This document shows positions 52,229 to 58,332 of a DNA stretch of 64,000 nt, one piece after another. The stretch's first letter is position 1; each line of letters starts with the position of its first letter. Below the pieces are notes generated by a model. That model did no database searches. It saw only the letters and a list, made by a program, of their open reading frames with translations, and was not told the origin of the DNA. The stretch is taken from assembly GCF_001280515.1 (NCBI RefSeq), contig NZ_LBIQ01000030.1, forward strand, positions 1 through 64,000, read 5' to 3'. The stretch is from Mangrovimonas sp. ST2L15 (GTDB lineage Bacteria; Bacteroidota; Bacteroidia; Flavobacteriales; Flavobacteriaceae). The translations under genes and the position numbers were made by a program.

Positions 52229-52624
52229 ATGTTGAAACCAAATCAAATCAAACTGAATCTAAGTATCTTGATTACTGTTATTTGTATGGGTACTGGATTT
52301 TCTCAATCGGGAAAGGTCGAAATCAATCAGGATAAAAAAATAGATCAGCTTTTTGCCTTAAAAAAAGAGGTAAATGCCTCTAATGAATATTCAGACCGAT
52401 ATAAAATTCAAATTTTTTCTGGAAATTTAAGTGGTGCTGAAAAATCAGTTACTGAATTCAGGAAAAAATACGAAAGTTGGTCTTGTAAAATGGATTTTGA
52501 AACACCTAATTATAAGGTGCGTGTTGGAAACTTTAGAAGCCGCTTGGAAGCAGATAAAGCTCTAGCTACAATAAAAAAAGAATTTCCTGCAGCATTTATA
52601 TTCAAACCCAAAAGGAGATCCTAA
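52229..52624 (+). CDS. Secreted SPOR-domain protein
   Basis: 131 residues. Signal peptide (LNLSILITVICMGTGFSQ), then a C-terminal SPOR domain from about residue 52 (DRYKIQIFSGNLSGAEKSVT, NYKVRVGNFRSRLEADKALA, KKEFPAAFIFKPK). SPOR domains bind denuded peptidoglycan strands at division sites. No membrane anchor is apparent, so it is probably periplasmic. Its role is inferred from the domain only. Alone on the plus strand between act and infB, sharing a terminator with infB. Confidence 0.93.
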   Translation: MLKPNQIKLNLSILITVICMGTGFSQSGKVEINQDKKIDQLFALKKEVNASNEYSDRYKIQIFSGNLSGAEKSVTEFRKKYESWSCKMDFETPNYKVRVGNFRSRLEADKALATIKKEFPAAFIFKPKRRS

Positions 52625-52634
52625 TAAGTCATAA

Positions 52635-52664
52635 AAAAAGGGCGGTTTTTCAACCGCCCTTTTT
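52635..52664. terminator. Bidirectional terminator between the SPOR gene and infB
   Basis: Stem AAAAAGGGCGGTT / AACCGCCCTTTTT with 4-nt loop, T/A-rich tails on both sides; serves both convergent transcripts. Confidence 0.92.
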
Positions 52665-52678
52665 AATTTTATGGAACT

Positions 52679-55483
52679 TTATTTAAGTTTCTTTTTTACC
52701 TCAACTTCTTGGAATGCTTCAATGATATCACCTTCCTGAATATCGTTATAATTTTTCACCTGCATACCACAATCGTATCCTTTAGAAACTTCCTTAACGT
52801 CATCCTTAAATCGTTTCAATGAAGTCAATTCTCCAGTGTAAATTACCACACCATCTCTAATAAGTCTAACTCCTGAATTTCTATATATTTTACCGCTAGT
52901 AACCATACATCCTGCAATGGTTCCAACTTTAGAAATCTTAAAGGTTTCTCTTATTTCAGCAGTACCAGTAACTTCTTCTTTCAGCTCTGGAGATAACATA
53001 CCTTCCATCGCATCCTTCAAATCATTGATGGCGTCGTAAATAATCGAATATGTTCTGATGTCGATTTCTTCCTTATCAGCTATTTGTCTGGCGTTACCCA
53101 TAGGTCTTACATTAAACCCGATGATAATCGCATCTGAAGCAGAAGCTAATAGCACATCACTTTCGGTAATGGCACCAACACCTTTATGGATAATATTTAC
53201 TTGAATTTCTTCAGTTGAAAGTTTTTGGAATGAATCTGTTAAGGCTTCTACGGAACCATCCACATCCCCTTTAAGGATAATATTAAGTTCTTTAAAGTCA
53301 CCTAAAGCAATACGTCTTCCAATTTCGTCAAGAGTTATATGACGTTGTGTTCTTACAGATTGCTCACGTTGTAATTGGGTACGTTTTGCAGCAATAGACT
53401 TGGCTTCTCTTTCATCATCAAAGACATTGAATTTATCACCTGCCTGAGGAGCACCATCCAACCCAAGAATAGATACTGGAGTCGCAGGTCCTGCTTCAAA
53501 CACATCATTACCTCTTTCATCATGCATTGCTTTTACCTTACCACTGTGTTTACCAGCTAGAACGTAATCGCCTATTCTCAAAGTTCCTGAAAGAACTAAA
53601 ATGGTAGCTACATAACCCCTTCCTTTGTCCAGGAATGCTTCTACAATAGTTCCAGTAGCATTTTTATCAGGATTTGCTTGAAGTTCCAATAGTTCGGCTT
53701 CTAACAATACTTTTTCTAATAGTTCAGCAACACCTTCCCCTGTTTTAGCTGAAATATCTTGGGATTGAATTTTTCCACCCCAATCTTCAACCAATAGGTT
53801 CATATTTGCCAACCCTTCTTTAATCTTGTCCGGATTTGCTGTTGGCTTATCAATTTTGTTGATTGCAAAAATAATAGGCACTCCCGCTGCTTGAGCATGG
53901 GCAATGGCCTCTTTAGTTTGCGGCATGATGTCATCATCAGCTGCAACCACAATAATAGCAATATCGGTAACTTGAGCACCACGAGCACGCATCGCTGTAA
54001 AGGCCTCGTGACCTGGTGTATCTAAGAAAGTGATTTTTTGACCATCTTCTAAGCTCACCCCATAAGCACCAATGTGCTGCGTAATTCCTCCAGATTCACC
54101 AGCAATCACATTTTCTTCACGAACATAATCCAATAATGATGTTTTACCGTGATCTACGTGTCCCATCACCGTAACAATAGGAGCTCTGTGTTTTAAATCT
54201 TCTGGTTTGTCTTGTACCTCTTCAAAAGATTCCTCAATATCGGCAGTTACAAATTCTACTTCATAACCGAATTCTTCGGCAACAATTGAAAGAGTTTCTG
54301 CATCCAGTCTTTGGTTCATGGTAACCATCATACCTAAAGACATACATGCTGAAATAATTTTAGTTACAGGAACATCCATCATAGTTGCTACTTCACTTGC
54401 TGTAACAAACTCTGTTACTTTAAGCTTTTTGCTTTCTGCTGCTTCTGCACGTAATTCTTTTTCAGTCTGCTCTCTATGTTGCTCTCTTTTCTCTCTACGA
54501 TACTTGGCTCCTTTACCTTTAGAGGATTTACCTTGAAGTTTCTCTAAAGTCTCTCTAATTTGCTTTGATACTTCTTCTTCACTAGGCTCTTCTTTCAAGA
54601 TTGGGCGTTTTCCTTTACCTCCTGGTTTAGGTTTCCCTTTGAATCTGTCGTTATTTCTATCTCCGCCTTGTCTATTGTCTACACCAACACCACCTTTACT
54701 GATTCTCCTTCTTTTCTTTCTAGCTGAATTATCACCAGCCTTTTTGTCATCATCCTTTTTGACCTCTTTCTTTTTCTTTGGTTTGTTAAATTGAGACAAG
54801 TCAATTTTCTCACCAGTGATATTAGGTCCAGAAAGTTTTTTGTATTGGGTCTTCAATTTTTCAGGTTTCGGATCGCCATTTTCATCTAGCTCGACTTCCA
54901 CCTTTTTAACTGGAGCCTCCTCTGGCTTTTTAACCTCTTGTTTAGGAGCGACTTCCTTTACAGGCTCCTCCTTCTTAATTGGGGCAGGCTCTGGCTTAAT
55001 TTCTTCCTTGGCAACCGGAGCTTCTTGAGGTTTTTCTTCCGCTTTTACTGGTTCAACAACCGGAGTTTCCTCTTCCTTGACCTCTTCTTTCTCAGGAGCC
55101 TTTTCTTCCTTTTTCTTAGGTTCAAGATCAATTTTACCAACCGTTTTCGGACCAGTAAGGGTAGATTTCGCCTTCACGATTTTCTCCTGCTCTTCCGCCT
55201 CTCTTTTAGCTCTTTCTTCCTCTTGCTTCTGAAGTTCACGCTCTCGCTGCAGCCTAAGCTCTTCCTTTTCCTTTTGTTTTGCCTCACTTACTTCTTGGGA
55301 CGCAACTTTTTTGTCTGCATCCGTTTGAAACTCGTCTGACAAAACTTCGTAAATGTCTTCAGTGATTTTAGTATTAGGACTTTTATCAATATTGATGCCT
55401 TTGGAATCCAAGTATTCCACAGCTCTGTCAATAGAGATATTCAACTCCCTTAATACTTTGTTTAATCTGATCGTTCCAGCCAT
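52679..55483 (-). CDS. infB: Translation initiation factor IF-2
   Basis: 934 residues. The N-terminal IF2-N fold ([20 protein letters not shown]) is followed by a long charged Glu/Lys/Pro linker (about 70-330), a second IF2-N region, and the GTPase domain with G1 [13 protein letters not shown]3 [11 protein letters not shown] and G4 NKIDKP. Domains II-IV end the protein ([20 protein letters not shown]). IF-2 places initiator tRNA on the 30S subunit. Last gene of rimP-nusA-infB, 29 nt after nusA. Confidence 0.97.
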
Positions 55484-55512: not shown

Positions 55513-56745
55513 TTAGTCCTCGAATTCTTCTCTTAAGATTGCGATGACCTCTTTAATTGTTTCTTCTTCTAAATCTGTTCTCTTAACTAAATCTGAGATA
55601 TCCAGTTCTAAAATACTTTTGGCGGTATCTAAACCAACCTTGCTAAATTCTTCTATAATCCAGCTATCTATTTCATCAGAGAATTCAGCTAATTCAACAT
55701 CTTCCTCAGCTCCTTCTCTAAACACATCAATTTCATAACCTGTCAATTGACCAGCCAATCTAATGTTATGTCCTCCTCTACCTATCGCCTTACTTACCTC
55801 TTCAGGTTTTAGTACTGCTTCAGCGCGTTTATTTTCCTCATCAACTTTAATAGAAGTAACTCTAGCAGGACTTAATGCTCTTGTAATATACAATTGAACA
55901 TTATTTGTGTAGTTGATAACATCAATATTCTCATTTCCTAATTCACGTACAATACCGTGAATTCTTGAACCTTTCATTCCTACACATGCTCCAACAGGGT
56001 CGATTCTATCATCATAAGAATCTACTGCCACTTTTGCTTTTTCTCCTGGGATACGAACCACGTTCTTGATGGTAATCAAACCATCAAACACCTCTGGAAT
56101 TTCTTGTTCAAACAATTTTTCTAAGAACAAAGGTGATGTTCTCGACATGATGATTGAAGGTTTGCTTCCTTTCAATTCTACATTTTCAATAACACCTCTT
56201 ACATTGTCTCCTTTTCTAAAAAAGTCAGAAGGAATCTGCTTTTCCTTTGGCAATATAATCTCATTTCCTTCATCATCCAACAAAATTACGGCTCTATGAC
56301 GAATATGGTGCACTTCTGCCGTATAAATTTCACCAATTAAATCTTTAAATTGTTTATAGATATTGGTGTTATCATGCTCGTGAATCTTGGAAATCAAATT
56401 CTGTCTTAACGCCAAAATTGCTCTTCTTCCAAGATCTATTAGTTTCACCTCTTCTGACACATCTTCGCCAACTTCAAAATCGGGCTCAATTTTTCTTGCC
56501 TCAGACAATGAAATTTCTTGATTTGGATCTTCAACATCTCCATCAGCAACTACAATTCGGTTTCTCCAAATTTCCAAATCTCCCTTATCTGGATTAATAA
56601 TGATATCAAAATTATCATCATCTCCAAATTTCTTTTTCAAAGCATTTCTAAAAACATCCTCTAAAATAGCCATCAAGGTCACACGATCTATTAGCTTATC
56701 GTCCTTAAACTCTGAAAAAGATTCTATTAATGCAAGATTTTCCAT
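55513..56745 (-). CDS. nusA: Transcription termination/antitermination factor NusA
   Basis: 410 residues. N-terminal RNA-polymerase-binding domain, S1 domain (about 130-200, IYTAEVHHIRHRAVILLDDE), then KH1/KH2 with GACVGMKGSRIHGIVRELG and AIGRGGHNIRLAGQLTGYEI. The C-terminal acidic repeats of the E. coli protein are absent, as is usual outside gammaproteobacteria. NusA promotes hairpin-dependent pausing and termination. A terminator-like hairpin precedes its operon, so autoregulation is possible. Confidence 0.97.
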   Translation of the reverse strand: MENLALIESFSEFKDDKLIDRVTLMAILEDVFRNALKKKFGDDDNFDIIINPDKGDLEIWRNRIVVADGDVEDPNQEISLSEARKIEPDFEVGEDVSEEVKLIDLGRRAILALRQNLISKIHEHDNTNIYKQFKDLIGEIYTAEVHHIRHRAVILLDDEGNEIILPKEKQIPSDFFRKGDNVRGVIENVELKGSKPSIIMSRTSPLFLEKLFEQEIPEVFDGLITIKNVVRIPGEKAKVAVDSYDDRIDPVGACVGMKGSRIHGIVRELGNENIDVINYTNNVQLYITRALSPARVTSIKVDEENKRAEAVLKPEEVSKAIGRGGHNIRLAGQLTGYEIDVFREGAEEDVELAEFSDEIDSWIIEEFSKVGLDTAKSILELDISDLVKRTDLEEETIKEVIAILREEFED

Positions 56746-56757
56746 TCTCCTTTTGAA

Positions 56758-57222
56758 TTAAAATTTTATCATAACTTTTGCTTCCTTTATATCTTGTAAT
56801 CCTATTACAGCTTCCTTTTTAACAGTTACCTTTCCCTTTCCTACCGGTTTAGGCTCTCTAACCTTCCACTGAATAGTTATGTTCTCATCATTAGCCTCAG
56901 CTAATTTACCCTCAAATTGCCCTCCTTCATTCGTCTTAATCGCTAACTCCCTGCCAATGTTTTTTGCATATTGCCTAGGGTTAACCAACGGAGCAGTAGC
57001 TCCAGCCGAAGACACCTCTAATGAAAAGTCCTCTTCCTCACGGTCCAAATTATGTTCAACCGCCCTACTGGCATTAACACAATCTTCCACGGTAACACCT
57101 TGGTCCCCATCAATCACCACCATTATTTTGTTATCTTCTGAGATAGACATGTCAATCAAAAATAATTGAGGGTTTTGATCGAAGAAATTTTCTAATAATT
57201 TTTCTACTGTCGGCTTAAGCAT
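56758..57222 (-). CDS. rimP: Ribosome maturation factor RimP
   Basis: 154 residues. Family motifs visible: FLIDMSISEDNKIMVVIDGD, VTVEDCVNASRAVEHNLDRE, DFSLEVSSAGATAPLVNPRQ. RimP assists 30S subunit maturation. First gene of the rimP-nusA-infB operon. The ATG at 57222 is two nucleotides after the stop of an 11-codon reading frame that spans the leader hairpin. Confidence 0.97.
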   Translation of the reverse strand: MLKPTVEKLLENFFDQNPQLFLIDMSISEDNKIMVVIDGDQGVTVEDCVNASRAVEHNLDREEEDFSLEVSSAGATAPLVNPRQYAKNIGRELAIKTNEGGQFEGKLAEANDENITIQWKVREPKPVGKGKVTVKKEAVIGLQDIKEAKVMIKF

Positions 57223-57232
57223 TTTTAAGTAT

Positions 57233-57258
57233 AAAAAGAGGGGACTTCCCGTCCCCTC
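57233..57258 (-). terminator. Terminator-like hairpin in rimP leader (possible attenuator)
   Basis: Reverse strand perfect 8-bp GC-rich stem GAGGGGAC / GTCCCCTC (5-nt loop) followed by TTTTTA. It lies between the rimP promoter and the rimP start, and the nearest upstream gene is on the other strand, so it can only act on the rimP transcript. A short reading frame, ATG 57260 to TAA 57225 (MRGREVPSFYT), runs through it. Confidence 0.65.
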
Positions 57259-57284
57259 ATTGATTTCTTTTTCTTACAACGGTG

Positions 57285-57292
57285 CAAATATA
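57285..57292 (-). promoter_or_regulatory. Promoter -7 box of rimP-nusA-infB
   Basis: Reverse strand TATATTTG, full TAnnTTTG match, giving a leader of about 55 nt that contains the terminator-like hairpin. Confidence 0.65.
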
Positions 57293-57385
57293 CAACATTT
57301 AAATTGAATTACATAATCCGTAAAATATCATTTTAATTTTTTACCTTTATAGTACACTTTCTACTAACACACTCACGAACTAATT

Positions 57386-58213
57386 ATGAAAAAAATCTTA
57401 GTACCAACCGACTTCTCCAATGAAGCGGAACATGCCTTAAAAGTAGCCGCTCAATTAGCAAAAAGATATGATTCTGAAATCTATTTACTTCACTTATTGG
57501 AGATTCCTGTGCAACAGGTAGATACCCTAAATGTTCAAAGCGATTTCCCTGAAGCCATGTTTTTCATGAAGCTGGCCCATCAAAAATTTGAAGACATAAT
57601 GTCAAGCTCATTCTTAGATGGCATTACAGTGCATGAAACTGTAGATTTTAATCAAAATTTCGCAGAAGTATCTAATGTGGCCAAAGAAAAAGGAGCCGAC
57701 CTGATTGTCATGGGCTCTCATGGTTCTAGCGGATTCAAGGAAATGTTTATTGGATCAAATGCCGAAAAAGTAGTAAGAACTTCGGAAATACCCGTTTTGG
57801 TTATTAAAAACCAACATGACTCTTTTGAGGTGAATGATTTTGTTTTTGCATCAGATTTCAAAAATGATAACAAAGAAACTTACAAACAAGCAACCAAGTT
57901 AGCAAGAATGTTTGATGCAAAAATTCACTTGTTACTGGTCAATACAGCCAGCAATTTCCAAACAACCATAAAGGCTCATGATAGAATACATGATTTTATC
58001 AGTGAAGACACGTTTGAAAACTACACAATCAACATATACAATGACGAAACCATTGAAAAAGGAATTTTAAATTTTTCAAGAGAAATCAAAGCAGACCTCA
58101 TTGGCATCAGCACCCATGGCAGACAAGGAATTGCTCACTTCTTTAATAGCAGCATCAGTGAAGATTTGGTCAATCATGCTAAAAGACCAGTCATGACGTT
58201 CAAAATAAAATAA
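57386..58213 (+). CDS. Universal stress protein with two Usp domains
   Basis: 275 residues, two tandem Usp domains. The first (1-143) has the ATP-binding pattern DLIVMGSHGSSGFKEMFIGS with KVVRTSEIPVLVIK; the second (about 150-275) keeps IGISTHGRQGIAHFFNSS but has lost part of the Gly pattern. Tandem Usp proteins of this size are common in Bacteroidota and respond to stress; the exact role is not predictable. Divergent from rimP, monocistronic, followed by a strong terminator. Confidence 0.94.
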   Translation: MKKILVPTDFSNEAEHALKVAAQLAKRYDSEIYLLHLLEIPVQQVDTLNVQSDFPEAMFFMKLAHQKFEDIMSSSFLDGITVHETVDFNQNFAEVSNVAKEKGADLIVMGSHGSSGFKEMFIGSNAEKVVRTSEIPVLVIKNQHDSFEVNDFVFASDFKNDNKETYKQATKLARMFDAKIHLLLVNTASNFQTTIKAHDRIHDFISEDTFENYTINIYNDETIEKGILNFSREIKADLIGISTHGRQGIAHFFNSSISEDLVNHAKRPVMTFKIK

Positions 58214-58258: not shown

Positions 58259-58259
58259 G

Positions 58260-58332
58260 TTGGCCTACTAGGGCTCGAACCTAGACTCTTCTGAACCAAA
58301 ATCAGACGTGTTGCCAGTTACACCATAGGCCA
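58260..58332 (-). tRNA. tRNA-Gln (anticodon TTG)
   Basis: Reverse strand cloverleaf. The 7-bp acceptor stem TGGCCTA / TAGGCCA is perfect. The anticodon arm is TCTGA-TTTTGGT-TCAGA with anticodon TTG, and the T arm is CTAGG-TTCGAGC-CCTAG. The 3' CCA is not encoded. The only RNA gene I find in the window. Confidence 0.95.

Follow-up and report, generated by a model that had tools for sequence, protein, structure and literature searches.

In the rimP-nusA-infB operon of Mangrovimonas sp. ST2L15, the leader upstream of rimP carries a GC-rich hairpin and a T-run that, judging from sequence, very probably constitute an intrinsic terminator. With a probability of roughly two in three, premature termination at this leader is stimulated by NusA and acts as negative feedback on the operon. 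Hairpin and U-tract would then form an intrinsic, probably leaky terminator whose U run ends approximately 48 nt past the start site. Polymerases halting at the hairpin would yield a short leader RNA only, and read-through would lead to transcription of the operon. As a product of these genes, NusA would stimulate termination in the leader, such that high NusA levels would lower, and low levels would raise, operon transcription. Feedback by NusA had been suggested by a sequence-only reading of this DNA; it is supported by conservation, by covariation, by the retention of the hairpin in operons that lack rimP, and by a precedent in B. subtilis (PMC12288461). We infer that termination takes place in Mangrovimonas, that it is leaky and depends on NusA, and where transcription starts; the nusA product is the likely source of the feedback factor.

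Leader anatomy and evidence for a terminator

The window, i.e., the whole 64,000-nt stretch of DNA analysed, contains the following features of the operon and its leader.

57285..57292, minus strand: TATATTTG, -7 box of the Bacteroidota primary sigma factor (TAnnTTTG), from sequence and family conservation
57280, minus strand: predicted transcription start, 5 nt past the -7 box, from box placement at -12 to -5 in F. psychrophilum (PMC9723704)
57225..57260, minus strand: 11-codon ORF MRGREVPSFYT*, not conserved and judged to be a by-product of the hairpin sequence
57238..57258, minus strand: very probable terminator hairpin, GAGGGGAC-GGGAA-GTCCCCTC, from sequence, fold, conservation, and covariation
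57230..57237, minus strand: U-tract TTTTTATA, broken after five U; the perfect-stem leaders of relatives have TTTTTATA in 93/144 and TTTTATTA in 28/144 cases directly after the stem
56758..57222, minus strand: rimP, operon gene 1 (PF02576, PF17384)
55513..56745, minus strand: nusA, operon gene 2 (PF08529, PF13184)
52679..55483, minus strand: infB (IF2), operon gene 3 (PF11987, PF04760)

On the minus strand, an 8-bp GC-rich hairpin followed by TTTTTA (57237-57232) indeed lies between the -7 box and the rimP ATG (57222-57220), as the sequence-only reading had described; six of its eight pairs are GC in the terminator scan. A short A-rich stretch separates the -7 box from the ATG of the small ORF (57260-57258), whose TAA stop codon is located at 57227-57225. 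The same reading had called the promoter full-consensus. This holds for the -7 box, which matches TAnnTTTG in full, but not for the upstream part, because no TTG is present at -33 spacing and the sole TTG in the 53 nt 5' of the -7 box directly abuts the box. If transcription starts at 57280, the ORF AUG would be at +21, the U run would end at +48, and a transcript to the fifth U would comprise 48 nt. The leader RNA from this start has a predicted folding energy of -16.8 kcal/mol (z -2.86), which was equalled by 3 of 200 shuffles. With up to three mismatches allowed, the hairpin motif has two matches in the window, which are the leader hairpin on either strand, and none in 100 shuffles. A scan of a 12-kb stretch for terminator-like sites retrieved nine, with no excess over shuffled sequence (7.8, sd 2.9), and thus the terminator scan alone proves nothing.

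The promoter region of rimP (57293-57385) is common to a divergent gene of the universal stress protein family (PF00582) at 57386-58213 on the plus strand. Farther upstream of the operon is a tRNA-Gln (TTG) gene (58259-58332, minus strand), an arrangement reminiscent of E. coli, in which the operon is preceded by the tRNA gene metY.

The identification of the hairpin as a terminator relies on its relatives. RimP loci were collected from three sets: 60 family genomes, 56 of which gave a match, 80 named genome contigs, and genomes across the order and phylum. The 80 named loci are the best matches to the RimP of the window and hence skewed to close relatives; those from the order and phylum combine the top PF02576 matches with hand-picked list entries. 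In total 248 leaders were read, 239 of them distinct, and one (L236) was left out owing to partial masking of its gene. Mangrovimonas spongiae (L044) and a genome of the same genus (G028, L003) have identical leaders.

Among family leaders with a perfect stem, the distance from hairpin end to start codon ranges from 11 to 136 nt, and the T-run is kept regardless of it. A TAnnTTTG box occurs at most 70 nt 5' of the hairpin in 140/142 family leaders vs 4/114 in a control stretch. In the family, an A just 5' of the stem is rare (5/117 leaders vs a background of 39%). Since an A in this place would extend the pairing into the U-tract, its avoidance counts for a terminator; outside the family such avoidance was not seen (11/27 have A). 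In 539 kb of the organism's own genome, with 447 ORFs from a simple caller, the order of TAnnTTTG box, hairpin, and T-run before a start codon was found at only two genes, the other of which has a weaker arrangement. Six of 142 family leaders contain a 5-nt complement of an arm within 40 nt upstream; in the other 136, no 5-nt Watson-Crick complement of either arm, as expected of an RNA antiterminator, was found in this interval.

A role of the hairpin as an element of translation or mRNA stability before rimP, rather than as a terminator, is scarcely credible. Its position 11-26 nt from the start codon in 105/117 perfect-stem leaders of the family would suit such a role, but the distance can grow to 136 nt (>100 nt in 9/117) while the T-run after the stem is kept, and the avoidance of A before the stem also speaks against it.

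Conservation and covariation of the hairpin

Within the family, the pattern GAGGGGAC-N(2-8)-GTCCYCTYTTT was found in 48/60 genomes, with a single match in each, and the reversed pattern used as control in none. The stem is perfect in 42 of the 48 genomes and a G-U variant in six, and all 48 matches are located directly 5' of rimP when coordinates are compared by eye. For comparison, the terminator that separates infB from the convergent gene was treated in the same manner; its stem was found in 1/60 genomes, its own. Compared to this one ordinary terminator stem of the window, the leader stem is thus much more constant (48/60 vs 1/60), with the reservation that this control is a single site and that other genomes may have no terminator there. 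The control hairpin (52635-52664) is strong, has T-runs on both strands, and lies between infB and a plus-strand gene (52229-52624); its 8-bp stem occurs in 0 of the other 59 family genomes.

In its own genome, the leader ranks first in a search with a covariance model (44.3 bits; next match 35.8). The model is unspecific, as all 60 family genomes were matched at E<=1 with 1 to 25 matches each. In the own genome, the six next-listed matches (five places), among the seven listed of 20 at E<=1, are gene-end terminators with T-runs of 6-9. A regulon with multiple sites was therefore rejected, since each of the 48 genomes carrying the motif has one copy and the next matches of the model are terminators at gene ends.

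Beyond the family, the position of the element is retained and its sequence changes. A hairpin with at least three GC pairs and a T-run was found in the last 150 nt of 141/143 leaders in the family, 46/46 in the rest of the order, 20/20 in the rest of the class, and 28/30 in the rest of the phylum; the same scan on shuffled leaders, with one shuffle per leader, retrieved 5, 1, 3, and 2, respectively. With at least four GC pairs, the corresponding numbers are 139, 38, 20, and 25 leaders vs 2, 1, 0, and 3 shuffles. Altogether, some hairpin with a T-run is present in 235/239 rimP leaders read across the phylum, where the scan keeps the best-scoring hairpin, which in some family leaders is not the GGGG stem. 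The stem sequence shifts with distance: other families of the order have, for example, GAAGGGGC...GCCCCTTC, and stems outside the class are quite different from those of the family. One other family of the order (f5; L188, L191-L195, L197) has a weak, long-loop leader hairpin (AAGGC/GCCTT) downstream of a conserved GATTTACGG.

The eight pairs of the stem covary. In an alignment of 65 hairpins, all eight stem pairs show a two-sided change in at least one sequence, a value that was reached by 0/500 shuffles. Sliding the partner column lowers the share of paired cells from 100% to 43-75%; the 100% partly reflects selection, because the 65 hairpins were picked from 115 for regular shape.

The leader ORF, operons without rimP, and alternative explanations

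The sequence-only reading had noted an ORF that begins with an ATG at the stem, encodes MRGREVPSFYT*, and terminates 2 nt short of rimP, all of which is correct. Its further suggestion, that a ribosome on this ORF melts the hairpin and couples the operon to translation or to arginine supply, does not survive comparison with the related leaders, in which hairpin and T-run are kept and the ORF frame is not. The ATG is present in 61/144 perfect-stem leaders, 59 of them among the 117 of the family, and missing in 83/144 (58/117 in the family); 16 of these 83 carry GTG or TTG instead. In the 61 leaders with ATG, the frame stops before rimP in 23 (23/144 of all perfect-stem leaders), runs past the rimP start in 17, and is still open at the sequence end in 21. 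The loop is 5 nt long in 101/144 and of other length in 43/144 perfect-stem leaders, so that the frame is shifted in the latter. A conserved leader ORF overlapping the terminator, as in leader-peptide attenuators, was thus not found in the 144 perfect-stem leaders. The hairpin is independent of the ORF. When about one leader per genus is considered, 26/54 family leaders have the ATG at the stem, more than would be expected from base composition; this excess is due in part to a preference for T before the stem, and shared descent may add more. Of the two arginine codons that had been regarded as rare, CGG is so (1.0 per 1000 codons in window ORFs) and AGG only moderately (5.3 per 1000).

Approximately 14 nt of nascent RNA are buried in RNA polymerase. 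With the AUG at +21 and the end of the U run at +48, little RNA would thus be exposed for ribosome loading before polymerase reaches the U-tract. This argument is not absolute, given a 2025 paper on a 30S complex at a polymerase paused close to the promoter (PMC12820379). Taken together, attenuation by the leader ORF is very unlikely: the ORF stops just 5' of rimP here, CGG is rare, and the ATG is frequent across genera, but most perfect-stem leaders lack the ATG, only 23/61 ATG frames stop before rimP, the encoded peptides vary in frame and length, the hairpin lies >100 nt from rimP in nine family leaders, and there would be scant room for a ribosome. Leader-peptide control was rejected because the leaders of relatives have no conserved ATG, frame, or length.

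Operons that lack rimP bear on the identity of the regulated genes. A NusA match was found in 169/170 rimP loci. In seven genomes without RimP match (G004, G065, G069, G071, G349, G395, G428), nusA is the first gene of the operon and is preceded by a GC hairpin and a T-run. A second set adds six rimP-less leaders (L302-L306, L308). In the scan, a hairpin before nusA was retrieved from 13/14 readable rimP-less leaders vs 16/700 shuffles, and the sole miss (L258) belongs to a 300-kb symbiont. Among the remaining rimP-less leaders, which are unreadable, L253, L254, L307, and L309-L311 start at a contig end, L312 is cut, and L257 is masked; the nusA search covered 28 genomes, six of them without match. 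In two 600-kb symbionts, the far contig end has only an AT-rich long-loop candidate, as judged by eye. When the interval of up to 1400 nt before nusA in the rimP-less loci was searched with a profile, the strand of nusA contained no RimP-like ORF. Several of these genomes have a completeness of 79-93%, so rimP could sit elsewhere, though not directly before nusA. The rimP-less cases span six families. Since two of these (f1, f15) have rimP-bearing members as well, the cases would not all go back to one event. Downstream of nusA, infB was recognised in 10/11 rimP-less loci tested (E below 0.001), and the eleventh (L260) has an infB match at E 0.05 only. Directly 5' of the nusA leader, eight rimP-less relatives (L251, L255, L302-L306, L308) have a tRNA-Gln (TTG) gene.

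Retention of the hairpin before nusA where rimP is missing indicates that the element needs no RimP and stays with nusA, and points to nusA-infB as the relevant genes. RimP itself is for this reason unlikely to be the factor. These operons also matter for the possibility that the leader contains a constitutive partial terminator, which would set operon output or release a trans-acting short leader RNA and involve no feedback. This explanation, which we regard as unlikely, would fit with the lack of a visible antiterminator and with the rimP leader being among the ProQ-associated small RNAs of enteric bacteria (PMC5391140), but by itself it leaves unexplained why the terminator is retained before nusA in rimP-less operons. 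Alternatively, the terminator might be the same but the feedback factor IF2, encoded by infB, or a different RNA-binding protein recognising the near-invariant stem. The constancy of the stem (48/60 vs 1/60 for the one ordinary window terminator stem) and the presence of infB after nusA in rimP-less loci where it is recognised would be in line with such a factor; the precedent in B. subtilis is NusA (PMC12288461), however, and we consider this assignment quite improbable.

Feedback by NusA itself thus is the preferred explanation. A bolder version, put forward here tentatively and on balance doubtful, is a Bacteroidota nusA attenuator in which NusA or another factor reads the near-frozen GAGGGGAC/GTCCCCTC stem sequence-specifically in the nascent RNA, unlike at ordinary intrinsic terminators, and which stays with nusA when rimP is lost. 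If sequence-specific reading occurs, the leader would be a dedicated sensor of NusA levels kept across a phylum.

Relation to known systems

In B. subtilis, intrinsic termination in the nusA leader is reported to be stimulated by NusA (PMC12288461, a review; Mondal et al., 2016, via PMC12288461 and PMC6200986), and NusA-dependent negative feedback at PylxS has been cited (PMC6200986). The Mangrovimonas operon, which encodes NusA, likewise has a terminator-like hairpin in its 5' leader, and the proposed effector and sign of regulation are the same; the effect of NusA is reported from experiment in B. subtilis, whereas we infer it here. NusA-dependent terminators of B. subtilis have distal interruptions of the U-tract (PMC8060035), as has the leader described here. 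Interrupted U-tracts are common among other predicted terminators of the own genome, and thus this feature is weak evidence for NusA dependence.

An attenuator in the rimP leader with feedback by NusA was proposed by Naville and Gautheret (2010; PMC2965389). It resembles the present element in being a terminator in the rimP-nusA-infB leader with conserved G-rich 5' and C-rich 3' arms, a U-stretch, no antiterminator, and a variable distance to the gene, and three sequence-level features of this attenuator class (hairpin with U-stretch, conserved G-rich and C-rich arms, no visible antiterminator) were found here. Its core is GGGc...gCCC; the window has GGGGAC...GTCCCC, and certain other families of the order have GGGGC...GCCCC. 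Among "the majority of species", the excerpted text names both Firmicutes and Gammaproteobacteria; the main text of PMC2965389 contains neither "Bacteroides" nor "Flavobacter". In S. agalactiae, RNA-seq indicated termination 31 nt past the start before rimP-nusA-infB (gbs0413-gbs0418), and feedback by NusA was suggested (PMC4448216). This is a similar case of a start-proximal stop at a predicted intrinsic terminator ahead of the same genes, with 31 nt determined by RNA-seq vs approximately 48 nt predicted here. PMC6511841 mentions that E. coli has terminators upstream of rimP and that NusA controls the operon, and an effect of Rho on a rimP fusion of this species has been reported (PMC7815308).

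The Rfam family RF01770 (rimP leader of Gammaproteobacteria) shares the gene context but was not among the seven matches at E<=10 in 56600-57500, which gives no ground for membership. A known Rfam family was rejected altogether, as none scored above threshold in this stretch; the best match, sraA (E 0.021, 29.9 bits vs a cut-off of 56), was treated as chance. In Flavobacterium psychrophilum, a structured 5' element without Rfam hit was reported upstream of rimP, with occurrence in other genera of Flavobacteriaceae (PMC9723704). It very likely is the same element as in Mangrovimonas, although the excerpt of that paper states no mechanism, stem sequence, or link to NusA. The one literature library searched yielded, among the matches listed and as far as their excerpts go, no paper on NusA autoregulation in Bacteroidota.

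Thus, the element is of a kind already known, and a rimP 5' element common to Flavobacteriaceae is in print (PMC9723704). New here are the precise motif with its near-invariance as a single copy, the evidence of covariation, the comparison that speaks against the ORF, and the rimP-less operons; the analysis also places a nusA attenuator in a phylum for which only a brief prior mention of a structured rimP 5' element was found. The rimP-less operons with a terminator represent a natural experiment and argue that regulation and sensing reside in NusA-IF2 rather than in RimP. If NusA feeds back on its own leader as widely as this, the circuit may be among the oldest of transcription attenuation.
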